The notes beneath the pieces are model-generated. The model searched no databases, was not told where the DNA came from, and saw only the letters and a program-made list of their open reading frames with translations. A DNA stretch of 58,059 bases, taken from Planctomycetota bacterium. GTDB taxonomy: Bacteria; Planctomycetota; Phycisphaerae; Phycisphaerales; UBA1924. The position numbers and the translations under genes are program-made. This document shows, in pieces, positions 1,342-52,362 of this stretch. The first letter of the stretch is position 1, and each line of letters begins with the position of its first letter. The stretch is from NCBI GenBank assembly GCA_018242645.1, contig JAFEBN010000224.1, forward strand, positions 1-58,059. The letters are read 5' to 3'.

Positions 1342-4300
1342 TTACTTCAGCAGCGGACGCAGGTACTGGCCCGTGTAGCTCTTTTCTACGGCCGCCACCT
1401 GCTCCGGCGTCCCTTGGGCCACGATGGTGCCGCCCTTGGCGCCGCCTTCGGGGCCAAGATCGACGATCCAATCGGCGCACTTGATGACGTCGAGGTTGTG
1501 CTCGATCACGATGAGGGTGTGTCCGGCCGCGGCGAGCCGGTCGAAGACGTGAACCAGCTTGCGGATGTCCTCGAAGTGGAGACCCGTGGTGGGTTCATCG
1601 AGCACGTAGAGCGTCTTGCCGTACGGATTCGCGGCACGCGCCCGCATCGCTTCGAATCGGTCCGCCCACTTTGACTTCTTGTCCGCCTTGCCCTTCTTGG
1701 CCTTGGCGAACTCATCGAGGGCATCGCCGTCGCTTTCGTCTTCCACTTCGGGTTGTGCGTCGGGGCTTCCGGCCGCGATGATCTCGGCCTGTTCCAGTGC
1801 GCCGAAGGTCTTTCCGAGTTCGGTCGCGAGCTTGATGCGCTGGGCTTCGCCGCCGGAGAGCTGTGTGCTCGGCTGCCCGAGCGTGATGTAGTCCAGGCCG
1901 ACATCGTGCAGGCACTTGAGGAAGCGGAGGATCTTCGGGTGATTCTCGAAGAACGAGAGCGACTGCTCGATGGTCATGTCGAGCACGTCGGCGATGGATT
2001 TGCCGCGGTAGAGGATCTCGAGCGTTTCGCGGTTGTAGCGTTTGCCGCGGCAGACTTCGCATTCCACGAACACGTCGGGGAGGAAGTGCATCTCGATTTT
2101 CTTGAGGCCCTGGCCTTCGCAAGCTTCGCACCGGCCGCCGCCGTTTTCGCCCCGCACGTTGAAGCTGAAGCGTCCGGGCTTGTACCCGCGGATTTTGGCT
2201 TCCTTGGTGGCGACGAACACCTTGCGGATGTCGTCGAAGATGCCGACGTAGGTCGCGGGGTTGGAGCGGGGTGTGCGGCCGATGGGTGACTGGTCGACTT
2301 CGATGACCCGGTCGAGCGTCTTGGGCCACTTGAATGAGGCGTGGGCGCCGGGTTTGTCGCGCCGGCCGAGCAACTGGTTGTTGGCCGAGACGAGGAGGAT
2401 GTCATTGACCAGTGTTGATTTGCCCGAGCCGCTCACGCCGGTCACACAGACAAAGCCGCCGGTCGGGAAGGCGACATCGATTTTTTTCAGGTTGTTGTGC
2501 GTGGCACCCTTGATGCTGATGGCGTTCTTCGTGTCCAGCTTGCGGCGCGACGCGGGCACCGGGATGTGCTTGCGGCCGGAGAGATAATCGCCGGTGAGCG
2601 ACTGGGGGCTGGCGCAGATTTCCTGCACAGTTCCCTGCGCCACGATGCGACCACCGTGCACACCGGGGCCGGGGCCGACATCGAGCACGTGATCCGCGGC
2701 CCGGATCATGTCCTCGTCGTGTTCGACGACGAGCACGGTGTTGCCGATATCGGCGAGGTGGCGAAGCGTCCTGATCAGCCGGTCGTTGTCCCGCTGGTGC
2801 AGGCCGATGGTGGGTTCATCGAGCACGTAGCACGCGCCCACGAGCCCGCTGCCCACCTGCGTCGCCAGGCGGATGCGTTGCGCTTCGCCGCCGGAGAGCG
2901 TGGCGGTTTTCCGGTCGAGCGACAGATACTCGAGCCCGACGCCGGTGAGAAAGCGAAGCCGGTTGTTGATTTCCTTGAGAATCGGCTCTGCGATGACCTG
3001 CTGCTCGCGGGTGAGCTGCAGGTTTTCCACGTACGCGATCGCGTCCACGATGTTGAGCCGCGAAAACTCGGCGATGTTGAGCATTGTTCCGTCCTGCCGC
3101 GGGCGGCCGATGACGGTCTCCGAGAAGGCCTTGGCGGTGTCGGCCTTGTGCGTGCTGGTGAGCAGCACGTGCAGCGCTTCGAGGCGCAGTCGATCGCCCC
3201 TGCATTCCGGGCAGGGGGAGTTGGACATGAACTGCCCGAGCCATTCCTTGACGGTCGGGTTGTCTGTCTTTCCCCACCACTCGGTCAGTTCGGGGATCAC
3301 GCCTTGCCACTCCTGGCGTGACTTGATCTTGAGTTTGGAGACCTTGCCCGAGGCCGGATCACCCATGTACCCGTACAGCAGCAGCTGACGTTGGTCTTTC
3401 GAGAACGTCGCGACGGGCGCGTTGTAGTCGATGCCGAGTGCTTTGCAGAAGCGCTTGAGCCCGCGCTGGAACCACGCGCGCACGGCCATGTTCTTGGCGT
3501 ACGCCTCGATGGCGCCCTCGGCGAGCGATTTCGCCTCGTTGGGCATGACCAGCGCCTCGTCGAGTTCGAGCAGCGTTCCCAGGCCCGAGCACGATTTGCA
3601 GGCGCCCTGGGGCGAGTTGAACGAGAACAGACGGGGCTCGAGTTCCTCGAGCGCCACTTCGGGGTGGTCGGGATCGGAGAAACGGGTCGAATACGTCGTG
3701 TCTTTCCAGCTCCCCGCGGCGTCTTCGAACGAGACCACGGCGGTGCCCTGGGCCACACGCAGCGCGGCTTCGACCGACTCGGCGACCCGTTGGCGTGCGT
3801 CGGGGCCGAAGGCGATGCGGTCGATCACCGCGTCGATATCGTGTTTCTCGAATCGGCCGAGTTTCAGCGGATTCTCACCCGGGTCCTTCAGCACGTCGCG
3901 CAGTTCGAGCAGTTTGCCGTTCACCCGAGCCCGCGCCCAACCCTGCTTCATCAGGTCCTCAAGCACGTCGCGGTGGAAGCCTTTCTTGCCGCGGACGACG
4001 GGGGCGAGGATCATGAAACGGGCGGCTTTGTCCTTGCCCGAGAGTTCCGCGGCACGCGCGGTGATGGCATCCACGATCTGCGTGCTGCCCATGGCGCTGA
4101 TCACGCGTCCCGAGCGTTCGAGCACCTGGCCGTCCTTCTTGGTCCGGGTGGGGGCCCAGGAGTGGGGTGTGCCGCAGCGGGCAAAGAGCAGGCGCAGGTA
4201 GTCGTAGATTTCGGTCGTCGTGGCGACGGTGGAGCGTGGATTGCTGCTGGCGCTCCGCTGCTCGATGGCGATCGTGGGGGGAACGCCCTCGACCTCGTCG

Positions 4301-5005: not shown

Positions 5006-7225
<2,220 letters not shown>

Positions 7226-7374: not shown

Positions 7375-7977
7375 ATGCGCTGGTTCAAAGACAAAGTCCG
7401 CGGACAGAAGCCGTCCAAGCCCGCTGCCGAGCGCCCAAAGGTGTCCCGCTCGGGCAAGCGATTCGACACCCGCCTGACCGACTCGGTGCTGGGCAGCGTG
7501 GTGGACCTGTCGACCGATGGCGCCCGCATCGTCACGCGCACCGAACCCACCGTGCGCGCCGGTCATGTGTTCGAGATCGCGGTCGCCTGCGACGATCTGC
7601 GCGTGTTCGTCCTGAGCCGCGTCGCATGGACCCGCAAGGTTGATAAGGACCTCTGGAACATCGGCCTGCACTTTTTCGACGCGGATGCCCGGACGCGATC
7701 GGATCTTGAGAAACTGCTCGACCGCTGCGCCTGCGGGCGTGAACTGCTGCCCACCAGCGTCGAGGTCGAAGACCTGTACGCCGTGCTCGGCATCTCGCGC
7801 GAAGCGACGATGGACGACATCCGAACCGCGTTCCGCCGCCTGGCCCGGCAATACCACCCGGATCACGCGCCCGATGAGGAATCCTCACGCCACTTTGCGC
7901 GCATCAGCAAGAGCTACATGGTGCTCCGCGACGAAAGCCTCCGCCGCCGTTACGACCAGCTTCTGAAAGTCGCCTGA
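7375..7977 (+). CDS. PilZ domain fused to a DnaJ J-domain
   Basis: The 200-residue product joins two recognisable modules. Residues about 25-115 form a PilZ domain with both c-di-GMP-binding motifs: RxxxR at 29-33 and DLSTDG (DxSxxG) at 44-49. Residues about 132-198 form a J-domain with the essential HPD at 161-163 and the usual closing helix (RRRYDQLL). A short Cys-containing linker (CAC, about 118-120) joins them. PilZ domains sense c-di-GMP and J-domains stimulate DnaK/Hsp70 ATPase, so the inferred role is c-di-GMP-controlled recruitment of DnaK. ATG 7375 is preferred; a TTG at 7333 would add 14 residues. It ends 4 bases from the stop of the convergent ABC permease. Confidence 0.85.
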   Translation: MRWFKDKVRGQKPSKPAAERPKVSRSGKRFDTRLTDSVLGSVVDLSTDGARIVTRTEPTVRAGHVFEIAVACDDLRVFVLSRVAWTRKVDKDLWNIGLHFFDADARTRSDLEKLLDRCACGRELLPTSVEVEDLYAVLGISREATMDDIRTAFRRLARQYHPDHAPDEESSRHFARISKSYMVLRDESLRRRYDQLLKVA

Positions 7978-7981
7978 AACT

Positions 7982-10774
7982 TCATCCCTTCATCGCCGCG
8001 AGCAATTCGCGGGGCTGCTTGCGCGAGAGCGCGAAGACCGACGGAGCCGCGGCGGCCAGCGTCAGCACAATCAGGATGGCGCATCCAACCGCGATCGCTC
8101 GGGCCTCGGGACGGAGCAGCAACTCCACGCCCATGATCACGGCGTTGAGCCGCACGCCCCCGTACGAACCCTGGATACCCATCGCCACGCCCACCAGGCA
8201 CGCGGCGAGCGCGACCACGATCGCCTCGGCCAGCACGAGCCGGCAGACCATGCCGGCCGATGCGCCCACCGCCCGCAGCACGCCGAATTCGAAGCGGCGG
8301 CTTTCGATCGCCGCCACAATGAGATTCGCGACGCCCAAGGAAGCGACAACCATCGACATCACCGCGATCGCGGACACGATGTACAAGCTCCGTCCGATCG
8401 CGCCCTCGATGAGACGTTTGAACATCCGGCCGGTGCCCACATCGAGCACGCCGCTGTCGTAAAGGTCCTTGCGGACGCTCGCCACGACAACTTCGTCGTT
8501 GGCGTCCTTGGCGAGGCCGAGGGAGATGATCTGCGTTGGCGGGTCGTTCCCGCCGAGCAGCTTGTCGCGCAGGTCCCGGCGCGAGCCAAAGACGGCGCTC
8601 ACGGCCTGGTCCACGTACATGTCGCCCAGATCGAAGAAATTGCTGACGATGTCGAGCCCGGGGCTGGTGACCACGCCGACGATCTCGAACTCCGCGGTGC
8701 GGTTCTGATAGCTCACCCGGACTTTTTTCCCGACCCCCAGGCCCTTGGACGTGAGGAATTCCCGCGCGACGATGACGGCACCGCCCTCATTCAGTCGGCG
8801 CGTCGCGGTCGCGGCGTCGCCCTGCACCCACGTCACATTCATCAGCTTGAAGAACGAGTCGGCGTCGAAACCGATGAATGCCGTCTTGAGCTGCTGGAGA
8901 GCGCCGACGCCCAGCCCCGACGCGCCCTCGCCGGAGATGCTCACGCGCACGAGCGAGAGCGGGCTGGCGCCCGTGATGCCCGGCATGGAGCGGAGCTTGT
9001 CAACACTCGCATCGGTCAGGGCAAGCCCGGTGACGAACGCATCCGGAAACTGGATGCGGCCCAGCCAGTCGCGGGCGAACGCGTTTCCCTGCGTCCACAG
9101 CGCCACCATCATCGCCAACCCGGACATGAGAGCGCCGGCGGTCAGACCGTGTCGATACGGTGTGCGCCGGATGCTGCGCTCGAGCAACGTTCGGGGCACG
9201 CCCAGGATGCGGGCGATGACGCCGCCCGCGACGAGCATCACGCCGGCGACCGCGGGTACCCCCAGCAGGAAGTAGCCGACGAACATGCACGGGAGGCCGA
9301 CAAGGACGTACAGAAAGAACAGACGATCGGCATCGGTGTTCAGCGTCACCACCAGAAAGTGGATTCCAATGAGCACCGATCCTGCCGCGAGCGTCCAGCC
9401 GATCGAACTTGTCCTGACCGCTTCGGCTCGGGCCGCGAGGGCGCGGAGCGGCTCCATACGTGCCGCGCGCCAGGCGGGAAACGCGGCGCCGAGCAGACCC
9501 GCGAGAACCGAGCCGAGAAGTCCCACGCCGATTCCGAAAACGGGAAACGCCAGTTCGACCTTCAGCTCTTCGCGGAACCACCAGATCACCGCGCTCGCGA
9601 GCCCTACACCGATCGGCACGCCGAGCAGCGAACCGGCGACCCCCAGGAACAACCCGGCGATCACCTGGCTTCCGGCGATCTGGGAGCGCGACGCACCGAT
9701 GCAGCGCAGGATCGCAAGTTCTCGCTGGCGCTCCACCACGCCGGTGGTCATGCCGGTGAGGATGATGAACGCCGCCGAAAGAAACGCCAGGGTCGAAGCG
9801 ATCACGAGCCCGACGTTGTTGGCCTGCAGGTTCTTTTCCAGGTTCGTCGTGATCTTCGCGGTTGCCTGAAGGATGGACTCGGCCGGCAGTTCGGAACTGC
9901 GGGCTGCGACCACCGCCGTCGGATCGTTTCCCGGTTTGAGCGCGAGTTCGATCTCGCTGAAAACGCCTTCTTGTTCCGTCACCTTTGCGAGTGCTTCGGG
10001 CGTCATCCACGCTCGGGGCCGGCCGCCGAGCATGCCGTGCGGCGCGATGCCGACGATCGTGAGCTTTGTGTCGGTCCCCGAGCGAACGAGTTCGATGGTG
10101 TCGCCGAGCTTTACCTGATACCGAGCTGTCAGCTCCGCCGCTTGGGCGCCGTCCGGTGCGATGGTCGGCCCGATATCGGCGTCCGCCTTTCCCTCGGGCA
10201 CCTGCGCCGGCGTGCCAGCGATCAGCGCGGACAGCGTTCCGCTGCGTCGATCCGCGCGGGGTTCGATGCCACGCAAGCGATCCAGCGCGGTGTGATCGAT
10301 GGCGATCTCGCCCGCGGCACGCGGCATGCGGCCCTCGAGCAATTCCACCGGGCGGTATCGCTCATCGAAGCCGGGTCGGAAACTCTCGATGTAGGCGTTC
10401 ACGGCGAACGACCGGACTGTCCGGGGCCAGCTCTTGGCGCCGTCTCTCTCGGTCTCCCGCCAGACGGGACGGACGGCGCGCAACGCCGCCGCGGCACGGA
10501 GTCTACCGCTGACGCTCTGCACCTCGGGCCACCGCTCGATGGATCGGATCAAGCCGCCGTCAAGGCGTTTCGAGCCGCCGGGACTCACGATCTGCAGGTC
10601 CGCCGATCCGACCGCGCCCACCATGCGTGCGCGTACCGATTCCGTGACACTCGCCATCGCCGTCGCAACAGCGCAGACGAGCGCCGCCGAGAGCGCGACG
10701 ACCAGCAGCAGCAAAATGCTGCGGCTACGCCGTTGCGACAGACTGCTGATAGCGAGCCGCCACGGCGCTCTCAT
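7982..10774 (-). CDS. ABC transporter permease, FtsX/MacB-LolE type with two FtsX cores
   Basis: This 930-residue membrane protein has an N-terminal helix (about 15-40), a large periplasmic domain, a three-helix FtsX core around 315-430 ending in the typical EPLRALAAR, further central helices, a second periplasmic domain, and a second FtsX core near the C-terminus. That duplicated layout is typical of permeases that do mechanotransmission or lipoprotein/peptide extrusion rather than transport through a pore. It is translationally coupled to the ATPase gene: ATG 10774 lies 50 bases inside that gene's 3' end. An upstream in-frame start at 10831 is less likely. The substrate cannot be told from sequence. 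Confidence 0.9.
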   Translation of the reverse strand: MRAPWRLAISSLSQRRSRSILLLLVVALSAALVCAVATAMASVTESVRARMVGAVGSADLQIVSPGGSKRLDGGLIRSIERWPEVQSVSGRLRAAAALRAVRPVWRETERDGAKSWPRTVRSFAVNAYIESFRPGFDERYRPVELLEGRMPRAAGEIAIDHTALDRLRGIEPRADRRSGTLSALIAGTPAQVPEGKADADIGPTIAPDGAQAAELTARYQVKLGDTIELVRSGTDTKLTIVGIAPHGMLGGRPRAWMTPEALAKVTEQEGVFSEIELALKPGNDPTAVVAARSSELPAESILQATAKITTNLEKNLQANNVGLVIASTLAFLSAAFIILTGMTTGVVERQRELAILRCIGASRSQIAGSQVIAGLFLGVAGSLLGVPIGVGLASAVIWWFREELKVELAFPVFGIGVGLLGSVLAGLLGAAFPAWRAARMEPLRALAARAEAVRTSSIGWTLAAGSVLIGIHFLVVTLNTDADRLFFLYVLVGLPCMFVGYFLLGVPAVAGVMLVAGGVIARILGVPRTLLERSIRRTPYRHGLTAGALMSGLAMMVALWTQGNAFARDWLGRIQFPDAFVTGLALTDASVDKLRSMPGITGASPLSLVRVSISGEGASGLGVGALQQLKTAFIGFDADSFFKLMNVTWVQGDAATATRRLNEGGAVIVAREFLTSKGLGVGKKVRVSYQNRTAEFEIVGVVTSPGLDIVSNFFDLGDMYVDQAVSAVFGSRRDLRDKLLGGNDPPTQIISLGLAKDANDEVVVASVRKDLYDSGVLDVGTGRMFKRLIEGAIGRSLYIVSAIAVMSMVVASLGVANLIVAAIESRRFEFGVLRAVGASAGMVCRLVLAEAIVVALAACLVGVAMGIQGSYGGVRLNAVIMGVELLLRPEARAIAVGCAILIVLTLAAAAPSVFALSRKQPRELLAAMKG

Positions 10775-11459
10775 CCAACCCCTCCGTTGAAATCCGCGTC
10801 TTGACCCGACCGTCAGCCACGACGAACACATCGCGGCAGTGCGCCGCCGCGGCGGGCTCGTGGGTGACCATCACGATGCTCACGCTGTGCTCTTGTGCAA
10901 TTTCCGACAGCAGCGCCCACAACCCCTGGCTGCTCGCGGAGTCCAGGTTGCCCGTGGGCTCGTCCGCCAGGAGCAGCGACGGGGAAAAGTGCAGGGCCCT
11001 TGCGATCGCGACACGCTGCTGCTCGCCACCCGACAAGGCATCGGGCCGGTGATCAAGCCGGTCACGCAGACCGAGCCGGGCGAGCAGGTCCGCGGCCCGC
11101 TTGCGGGATTCCTCCGCGGACGCCCCGGTCAGGATCGCCGGCAGCTCCGCGTTCTCGAGCGCCGTCATGGTGGGGATGAGGTTGAACTGCTGGAAGACGA
11201 TTCCGATCTTTGTGCGTCGGAAGTCGGTCGCGTCGCGCTCGTTGAACCGATCGATGCGTGTCCCGCCGATCTCGATCTCGCCGGAGTCGGGCTTGTCGAG
11301 CGCCGCCAGCAGGTGGAGAAGCGTCGATTTGCCGCTGCCGGACCTTCCCATGATGGCGTAGAAACCCGGCTCGTCGATGCGCAGATCGATGCCGCGCAGC
11401 GCTTCGACCTGCCGCGCTCCGACCCGGTACGTCTTTCGAACGTCTGTGCAGCGCAGCAT
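10725..11459 (-). CDS. ABC transporter ATP-binding protein, LolD/MacB family
   Basis: This 244-residue ATPase has Walker A GRSGSGKS (38-45), a Q-loop at FQQFN (about 89-93), signature LSGGEQQR (142-149), Walker B LLLADEP (162-168) followed by TGNLDS, and an H-loop THE. The FQQFNL and TGNLDS motifs are characteristic of the LolD/MacB/FtsE group that partners FtsX-type permeases, which matches the overlapping downstream gene. ATG 11459 is preferred over TTG 11468. It starts 46 bases after gcvH ends on the same strand, so it may be cotranscribed with gcvH, although no functional link is evident. Confidence 0.93.
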   Translation of the reverse strand: MLRCTDVRKTYRVGARQVEALRGIDLRIDEPGFYAIMGRSGSGKSTLLHLLAALDKPDSGEIEIGGTRIDRFNERDATDFRRTKIGIVFQQFNLIPTMTALENAELPAILTGASAEESRKRAADLLARLGLRDRLDHRPDALSGGEQQRVAIARALHFSPSLLLADEPTGNLDSASSQGLWALLSEIAQEHSVSIVMVTHEPAAAAHCRDVFVVADGRVKTRISTEGLDESAVAARYQQSVATA

Positions 11460-49889: not shown

Positions 49890-51074
49890 TCAGGCGGCGC
49901 GGGCCCGCTCGCAGGCCGCGATGACGTCGGCGAGGACCACGGCGGATTCCTTGGCGCTCCTGGTCCATTCGAGCATCTGCAGCGCGCGTTCGGCGGGCGG
50001 AACCATGCTTCCGAAACCCATGGCCGGCGCCGCGCCGGCGATCATCAGGCAGACGCGTTCGCATTCGCGTGCGTCGTCGCGTGCGATCGCGCCGCGGAGC
50101 GTTTCCGCGGAGGTGTGCAGTTCGGCGACAAAGTCCGGCAGCATCTCTGCGGCGGAATCGCCGGCGCTCAGGGTCGAGGTGGATGCCGCGGCGGCGGAGC
50201 CTGCGGCATCGCCCATGAATTCCGCGAGTGCCCTGAGCAACCGGTCGCAGCTCAGCGGCTTGCCGAGCACGCCCTCGCAGGTTGCGGCTCGCGCCGCGTC
50301 GCGCGACTGGCGTGAGACGTCGGGCGTGATGATCAGGACGGGGGTGCGAACGCCGACCGCCCGCACGTTGGAGATGAACTCCGCGGCGCTGCCGTCGGGA
50401 AGGTTGAGCGCGACCAGGATGAGATCCGCGGGTTCTCGCAGCGCCGCGAGCGCTTCGCTCTGCGAGGCGCAGCGGCGCAGACGGATCTGCGTGCCTCGCG
50501 TGAAATGGTTGATCAGCCGCTGCTCCTGCTCGTCGGGGTCGACAACCATGAGCGAGCCGGAGAGTTTCTCGGGGGTGACCTTTTCCTGGCTGTAGATTTC
50601 GGCGCCCGCATCGAGCGAGACGTATTCCTTGGCATCGATGGGGTGATCGAACCGGATGCCGAGTTCGTGCACTATGCCGCCCCGGTGCTTGCAGCGGGCG
50701 AGGCTGCCGAACACGCCGACCTCGCCCCGGACAGGGTGCGGGAGCCAGAGCACGCACCGTCCCCGTTCGTGCAGGTAGGCGTTGTGGAAGAGCGAGATGC
50801 CGCCCCGCGAGAGGTTGCGGCACGCGAGCTTCAGCAAGAGCTGTGTGCCGCCGGGCTGATCGACCTGGACGCGCACGCGTTCCCGGTGGAAAGGCCAGCG
50901 AACGAAGTCGCGTTTCATCTCCGACGGGCGCGAGCCGTCGCTCGAATCAAGGCGAGCGGACAGTGCCCGCACGCCCTCCAGATCCAGTCCCAGCGTGTTC
51001 TTGCGTGCACCGACCGAGTCTTCGGTCCAGCCGCCACGGTTGGCCCAGCCTGCCGTGCCTTCGCGAATGTCCAT
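49890..51074 (-). CDS. PilZ / pseudo-receiver / HPt-like protein, copy 1
   Basis: The 394-residue product contains a PilZ-like domain (about 55-165; NLSRGG in place of DxSxxG, with nearby basic residues), a receiver-like domain (about 180-300) and an HPt-like helical domain (about 310-394). The receiver lacks the phosphoacceptor Asp: the strand reads DLILVALNLPDG with Ala in that place. The HPt-like helix (IAGAAPAMGFGS) lacks the phosphorylatable His. It is a tandem paralogue of the gene at 51199. ATG 51074 is preferred because it aligns with the paralogue's N-terminus and has GAGAGG upstream; ATG 51137 is the alternative. Confidence 0.85.
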   Translation of the reverse strand: MDIREGTAGWANRGGWTEDSVGARKNTLGLDLEGVRALSARLDSSDGSRPSEMKRDFVRWPFHRERVRVQVDQPGGTQLLLKLACRNLSRGGISLFHNAYLHERGRCVLWLPHPVRGEVGVFGSLARCKHRGGIVHELGIRFDHPIDAKEYVSLDAGAEIYSQEKVTPEKLSGSLMVVDPDEQEQRLINHFTRGTQIRLRRCASQSEALAALREPADLILVALNLPDGSAAEFISNVRAVGVRTPVLIITPDVSRQSRDAARAATCEGVLGKPLSCDRLLRALAEFMGDAAGSAAAASTSTLSAGDSAAEMLPDFVAELHTSAETLRGAIARDDARECERVCLMIAGAAPAMGFGSMVPPAERALQMLEWTRSAKESAVVLADVIAACERARAA

Positions 51075-51198
51075 TCGACGAACCCTCTCCGCTCCGCATT
51101 CCTTGCGAGCGTCTGAGGATCGGCCGTGCTGAGTCATGGCATGAGACTCCGCAGAAGACTTAATGATCCGCCGATGGCGAAGAAGTCCGAGAGCGAAC

Positions 51199-52362
51199 TC
51201 AACCGGCGCGGCGTGCGGCCTGTGCGCTCTCGCAGGCCCCGATGAGTCTCAGAATCGCCGCCTTCGACGATTCGACTGAGCGCGTCTGAGTCAGAGAACG
51301 GGTGGCCTGATCGGCGAGCGAACCGATTCCGGCAAAGCCCATGGGGGGCGCCGCGGAAGCGATCTGCGAGCAGATGGCCTGGGTGGCGTCGAGCTCGCCC
51401 CGCTCAAGCAGGCCGCGAAGGTCGGTGGCCGAGGCGTTGAGGCTGCGGACGAACTCGGGGAGCAAGGCGATCTTCTCGTCCTTGGCGTTCATGGAACTGA
51501 CCGTTGAGGCGGCCGAGCGTCCGACGATCAGGAATTCCCCCAGAGCGCGTGCGAAAACATCGCGCGTCAGGGGCTTGGCGAGTACGGCGGCGGGGTCGAG
51601 TTCTTTCAGGATCTTGCGCCGCTCATCGGGTCCGCGGGCGGTGGTGACGAGAATGGGCGTCGCGAGGCCCGCATCGTGCGCCGCCTGCATGAACGCCGCG
51701 AGCTCGAACTTCTGCTGATCGGGGTCCGCGACGATCAGGTCGGCGCCTTCCGCGGCGTGCTTCAGTGCCGTGACCTGGTCCTGCGCCACGCGGAGGCGCA
51801 CATCCGTTCCTTTGAGGAAGCTCTGGATCAGCTTGGCTTCCATGTCGCTGGTGCCGACAAGCACGATGCAGCCCCGCATCTCCTCGTCCTTCACGTTCTC
51901 GAGCGTGAACCAGTCCTCGAGCGGATCGATCTGCAGGAATTCGGCCGGCTTGATCGGCTGATCGAACTTGATGCCGAGCTGATGCACCAGCGCCCGCACG
52001 TGCTGGCAGTGGGCCACCTTTCCGGTCACGGCCACCGTTCCCCGCGTCGGGGTGCGGAAGTTGAGCACAACCTTGGTGCCGACGTGCAGGAACGAGTTGT
52101 GCAGAAGGGCGGCGCCGCCGCTGGAGATATTGCGGCAGACCACGTTGAGCTTGGTCGGCACGCCGCCGGCGTGATGGACTTCCAATTCAAGCGCCGAGAG
52201 CCGGAGCTGACGCCGCTTGTACCGGCGGTGCTTGGATGATGCCGCGGCATCCGCCTCGTCGAGCCGCTTGAGCAGCGCCGCGAGGTCGTTGATGCTGAGC
52301 CCGAGCGTGTTGATGCGCCCGACGCTCTGTCCCGTGCTATCACGTCCTTTGATTTCTGCCAT
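51199..52362 (-). CDS. PilZ / receiver / HPt-like protein, copy 2
   Basis: A 387-residue protein with the same layout as its downstream neighbour: shared N-terminal NTLGLSINDLAALLKRLDEAD-type segment, PilZ-like domain (NISSGG near 80), receiver-like domain (about 165-275) and C-terminal HPt-like bundle. Here the receiver strand ADLIVADPDQQ keeps an Asp at the phosphoacceptor position, but the usual acidic pocket and the conserved Lys are only partly recognisable (VLAKPLTRD). The HPt-like helix (IASAAPPMGFAG) again has no His at the phosphorylation site. Function is unknown; a c-di-GMP-responsive adaptor is inferred. Confidence 0.85.
   Translation of the reverse strand: MAEIKGRDSTGQSVGRINTLGLSINDLAALLKRLDEADAAASSKHRRYKRRQLRLSALELEVHHAGGVPTKLNVVCRNISSGGAALLHNSFLHVGTKVVLNFRTPTRGTVAVTGKVAHCQHVRALVHQLGIKFDQPIKPAEFLQIDPLEDWFTLENVKDEEMRGCIVLVGTSDMEAKLIQSFLKGTDVRLRVAQDQVTALKHAAEGADLIVADPDQQKFELAAFMQAAHDAGLATPILVTTARGPDERRKILKELDPAAVLAKPLTRDVFARALGEFLIVGRSAASTVSSMNAKDEKIALLPEFVRSLNASATDLRGLLERGELDATQAICSQIASAAPPMGFAGIGSLADQATRSLTQTRSVESSKAAILRLIGACESAQAARRAG

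Follow-up and report, generated by a model that had tools for sequence, protein, structure and literature searches.

The 58,059-nt stretch of DNA analyzed here (the window) carries, at 7375..7977 on its plus strand, a gene for a 200-aa protein in which a PilZ domain is followed by a J-domain (hereafter PilZ-J). The open reading frame (ORF) starts with ATG at 7375 and closes with the stop codon at 7975-7977. Although the longest mechanical ORF opens upstream, at TTG 7333, we set the start at 7375 because an M[RK]W start is common to the genus orthologues; ORF and start are shared by eight genomes of the genus. Four parts follow one another along the chain, all on the plus strand: an N-terminal segment of the MRW[FIL]xxK[LV] type (residues 1-9; 7375..7401), whose M[RK]W start is present in 8/8 genus members; a compact PilZ domain (residues about 23-119; 7441..7731); a short linker (residues 120-130; 7732..7764); and a C-terminal J-domain (residues 131-197; 7765..7965). 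The linker, ~11 residues, is constant in length within the genus, and in distant homologues it is longer and variable. The distance from D44 of the PilZ domain to the HPD tripeptide of the J-domain is 117 residues in the genus and reaches 177 in distant homologues.

PilZ-J lies between two minus-strand genes that are not part of the proposed system. The divergent neighbor, uvrB (5006..7225; Pfam UvrB domains), recurs in the genus loci compared and serves as a synteny marker, while the convergent neighbor, encoding an FtsX/MacB-type permease (7982..10831; Pfam FtsX and MacB_PCD), is kept in the genus loci with a clean gene call, where an ABC ATPase is also found on the permease side of PilZ-J. 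At two genus loci (L105 and L108), the gene call had taken an overlapping ORF on the opposite strand; uvrB is present at both, and the PilZ-J frame was found by profile. No consistent neighbor that would name a client was seen in the loci compared outside the genus. The genome that carries PilZ-J also has six matches to GGDEF, the domain of c-di-GMP synthesis, as well as DnaK and three other J-domain genes. In one other genome (G012, contig C71, locus L124, 141-3784), PilZ-J, an uncharacterized gene of 268 aa, and a GGDEF-EAL gene succeed one another on the same strand, placing PilZ-J two genes upstream of the latter; with a single such case in about 20 loci, the proximity may be due to chance.

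The initial annotation held that one chain carries both a PilZ domain and a J-domain, each of them intact. Pfam matches support the first point, at 37.1 bits for PilZ (PF07238; residues 37-115; cut-off 22.5, E 4.2e-9) and 69.7 bits for DnaJ (PF00226; residues 133-194; cut-off 27.8, E 2.3e-19), scores that put the pairing of the two domains far beyond chance. The J-domain is indeed intact, its match covering 63/63 profile positions and its HPD tripeptide (H161-P162-D163; 7855..7863) being present in 39/39 homologues. For PilZ the description applies in part: both ligand motifs are conserved, but the first strand and the β1-β2 hairpin are shortened, as seen from where the Pfam alignment starts. 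That match opens at profile position 22, leaving the first 21 profile positions without a counterpart.

PilZ receptors bind c-di-GMP through an RxxxR motif and a DxSxxG motif, and in VCA0042 this binding rotates the neighboring domain (PMC3131395). Two overlapping RxxxR strings occur in PilZ-J, R25-SGK-R29 and R29-FDT-R33, and residue tallies were taken over 39 distinct full-length PilZ-J proteins. Since R25 is kept in 37/39 and R29 in 39/39, while R33 is arginine in 8/39 and is retained essentially only in the genus, R25-SGK-R29 (7447..7461) is the true motif pair and R29-FDT-R33 was rejected as a binding motif. The conserved arginines of the homologues sit 19 and 15 residues ahead of D44, the first residue of the DxSxxG motif (D44-LSTD-G49; 7504..7521). 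Here D or N occupies position 44 (37 D and 2 N), S or T position 46 (38 S and 1 T), and G position 49 in all 39 proteins. A 26-sequence alignment gave 13 invariant columns, among them R25, R29, G49, H161, P162, and D163, with D44 and S46 conserved at ≥90%. Membership of the PilZ family is therefore backed both by a PF07238 score above the curated cut-off and by conservation of both ligand motifs in homologues. Judged from the aligned residues, this is the pattern that selection for ligand binding and DnaK stimulation would leave. Motif residues are no guarantee of c-di-GMP binding, however, as PlpA of Myxococcus xanthus has them and is a reported non-binder.

The family PilZ profile matches Alg44 (4xrn, 4rt0, and 4rt1) and PP4397 (2gjg and 3kyf) from the DxSxxG motif to the C-terminal helix, and both of these proteins bind c-di-GMP. 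An AlphaFold model built from two sequences, that of the window and that of its relative L001, shows five strands and a helix, where a PilZ domain has a six-stranded β-barrel and a C-terminal helix, but its mean pLDDT of 45 is too poor for judging either the fold or the pocket. This low-confidence model also places a helix at residues 2-8, so that residues 1-9 could possibly form a short amphipathic helix; a targeting role for such a helix, with its conserved M[RK]W, is guessed from the sequence.

The shortened hairpin deserves separate consideration. In PilZ-J, 15 residues lie between the second arginine of RxxxR and D44, whereas the other PilZ proteins of the genome in which both motifs are readable have 24-33 residues between the motifs, with one exception: contig C11 encodes a stand-alone PilZ with the same spacing of 15. 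The inter-motif stretch of PilZ-J is thus ~10 residues shorter than that of most other PilZ proteins of the genome, in line with which the Pfam match begins only at profile position 22. Many genomes of the order, with or without PilZ-J, also encode compact PilZ proteins that stand alone; since they exist, the short β1-β2 hairpin is a trait of the lineage's PilZ domains and not of the fusion. Pfam does not separate the compact form, which seems to represent a PilZ type specific to the lineage.

Several related arrangements were observed. Stand-alone PilZ genes with ~15 residues between the motifs are widespread in the order (e.g., at L142, L145, L149, and L153), and at L148 (G041, contig C19) a second compact PilZ gene, lacking a J-domain, lies a few hundred bases from PilZ-J on the opposite strand. 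At L029 (G055; 1498-2463, plus strand), the PilZ-J protein has a second PilZ-like stretch (NASSTG) beyond the J-domain. In the window itself, two adjacent, similar genes on the minus strand (49890-51137 and 51199-52362) lie downstream of a gyrB-like gene; one matches Pfam Response_reg and the other PilZ. On visual inspection, both seem to consist of a PilZ domain with a receiver-like domain behind it, as though one gene had been duplicated in tandem and Pfam detected a different half of each copy.

Features of class A and B DnaJ proteins (G/F region, zinc repeats, and DnaJ_C) are absent from PilZ-J, in which the J-domain is C-terminal and stands without zinc or client-binding domains; its best PDB sequence match is the J-domain of DnaJ 2. 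NCBIfam DnaJ models align along roughly their first 70 positions and no further, with scores far under the cut-off. Since this match is confined to the J part and the chain ends just past the J-domain, we assign PilZ-J to the class C J-proteins. J-domains with HPD stimulate the ATPase of DnaK, and in class C proteins specificity comes from the non-J part.

The same domain order recurs in related genomes, as the initial annotation had proposed to check. A full-length orthologue was found in 7/7 other genomes of the genus, at 67-82% identity. A contig scan gave one relative, L001, from a metagenome-assembled genome named Planctomycetota bacterium, with 82% identity across all 200 residues. Within the genus, the PilZ part has a mean dN/dS of about 0.14, the J part one of about 0.10, and the linker at residues 10-22 one of about 0.40, ratios that are rough because dS is high; both domains are under purifying selection. 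Within the order, a profile of 26 sequences (E ≤ 1e-33) had matches in at least 87 of 301 genomes, representing at least 42 of 147 genera and five families, and every listed match covered both domains. Samples of the class (at least 7 of 198 genomes) and of the phylum (at least 5 of 294) yielded matches that were all within the order; outside it, only J-domain matches were among those listed. Because 10-15 first-look candidates were scored per genome, and because G019, which carries PilZ-J (L129), was tallied in the order count as being without one, these numbers are minimum counts, and PilZ-J may also exist beyond the order. A scan of viral contigs found no relative, and plasmid records gave partial matches only, mainly to the J-domain. 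Two findings named beforehand as contrary evidence, loss of HPD in relatives and homologues split into neighboring genes, were looked for as well: HPD was never lost in the 39 proteins, and no J-domain gene stood beside a stand-alone compact PilZ in the flanks inspected (about 1.5 kb; 12.5 kb at L123). Taken together, the sequence comparisons indicate that the fusion is real, conserved, and probably functional.

One earlier statement, that no example of such a protein had been described, must be withdrawn, since PilZ proteins of M. xanthus with a DnaK or DnaJ domain are already published (PMC8316039), as are the PilZ-DnaK chaperones CsdK1 and CsdK2 of the same bacterium (PMC10313047). The former resemble PilZ-J in that a single protein unites PilZ with a J-domain (or with DnaK), and their authors suggested that they contribute to folding or quality control (PMC8316039). 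The comparison with the M. xanthus PilZ-DnaJ proteins covered one published sentence, and since M. xanthus belongs to another phylum, common descent of the fusions can only be conjectured. CsdK1 and CsdK2 stabilize the PilZ protein CdbS and, like PilZ-J, have PilZ N-terminal to a module of the Hsp70 system; in them, however, PilZ is fused to Hsp70 itself, whereas in PilZ-J it is fused to a co-chaperone and DnaK would be recruited in trans. Short class C proteins such as AtcJ of Shewanella (PMC6715715) resemble PilZ-J in having neither zinc finger nor DnaJ_C and in drawing specificity from another segment, which is a short C-terminal extension in AtcJ and the PilZ domain in PilZ-J. Canonical PilZ receptors (YcgR, Alg44, and PP4397) likewise have RxxxR in an N-terminal stretch along with DxSxxG; PilZ-J stands apart in its motif spacing, shorter than in most other PilZ proteins of its genome, and in having a J-domain as output. 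Searching the literature for PilZ in combination with Planctomycetes returned nothing relevant, and no paper on such a c-di-GMP output in the phylum was found. The kind of fusion is therefore already known and barely studied, and the PilZ-J of this order is a conserved variant, new for the phylum in the literature searched.

We propose that PilZ-J is a class C J-protein with a c-di-GMP-receptor PilZ domain, in which the ligand alters docking and the J-domain brings DnaK to a client or site, a reading to which we give roughly even chances. Rising c-di-GMP would be bound by R25 and R29 together with D44, S46, and G49; the N-terminal segment would then close over the barrel, and closure would change the docking partner of the PilZ domain, either a client complex or a membrane site. 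The tethered J-domain would recruit the housekeeping DnaK at that docking site and stimulate its ATPase. That the protein binds c-di-GMP, stimulates DnaK, switches its docking, and has a client at all is inferred in this scheme. The broader claim, that an order-wide planctomycete family of compact-PilZ, c-di-GMP-gated J-proteins lets the messenger decide where, or on which client, DnaK acts, we hold tentatively, with chances just short of even.

Alternatively, and with distinctly lower probability, the PilZ domain could bind c-di-GMP and yet be mainly a constant targeting or dimerizing module, the ligand altering stability or location slightly, in an ordinary specialized J-protein with one client (e.g., an envelope or polysaccharide-synthesis complex). 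CsdK2, the closest studied relative, keeps both c-di-GMP motifs, yet its tested client contact is independent of the PilZ motif (PMC10313047), and ligand-dependent behavior was not reported for any PilZ-chaperone fusion in the literature examined; the conserved M[RK]W segment, moreover, could supply the targeting. However, the arginine pair is near-invariant among proteins that are otherwise about 30% identical, a degree of conservation that would be puzzling if ligand binding were of no importance.

The short genus linker, which sets the two domains side by side, would also suit an intramolecular gate, by which c-di-GMP hides or exposes the J-domain and so switches the general DnaK pool, as in a stress response, instead of recruiting DnaK to a specific client. 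In heat-stressed M. xanthus, c-di-GMP rises about 4-fold (PMC10313047), in keeping with such a gate. Nevertheless, the variable D44-to-HPD distance in homologues argues against a fixed interdomain interface and is more readily reconciled with a docking module than with a rigid gate, making the latter improbable. It is very improbable that the PilZ domain has ceased to bind c-di-GMP and makes protein-protein contacts only: the compact hairpin, the missing start of the Pfam match, and the precedent of PlpA would allow it, but few residues of the protein are as well conserved as those of the ligand motifs. An artefact, in which a sequencing error or a mis-assembly had fused two genes, is refuted by the same fusion in eight genus genomes and many other genera, and its probability is negligible.

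To our knowledge, there are hardly any descriptions of Hsp70 co-chaperones under second-messenger control. The conservation within the PilZ-J family is that which one expects of a working receptor. If ligand-controlled docking is true of PilZ-J, c-di-GMP would be a direct second-messenger input to the Hsp70 cycle, with protein folding or the assembly of complexes as its target, and the PilZ-DnaK observation of Myxococcus would be extended to a co-chaperone.
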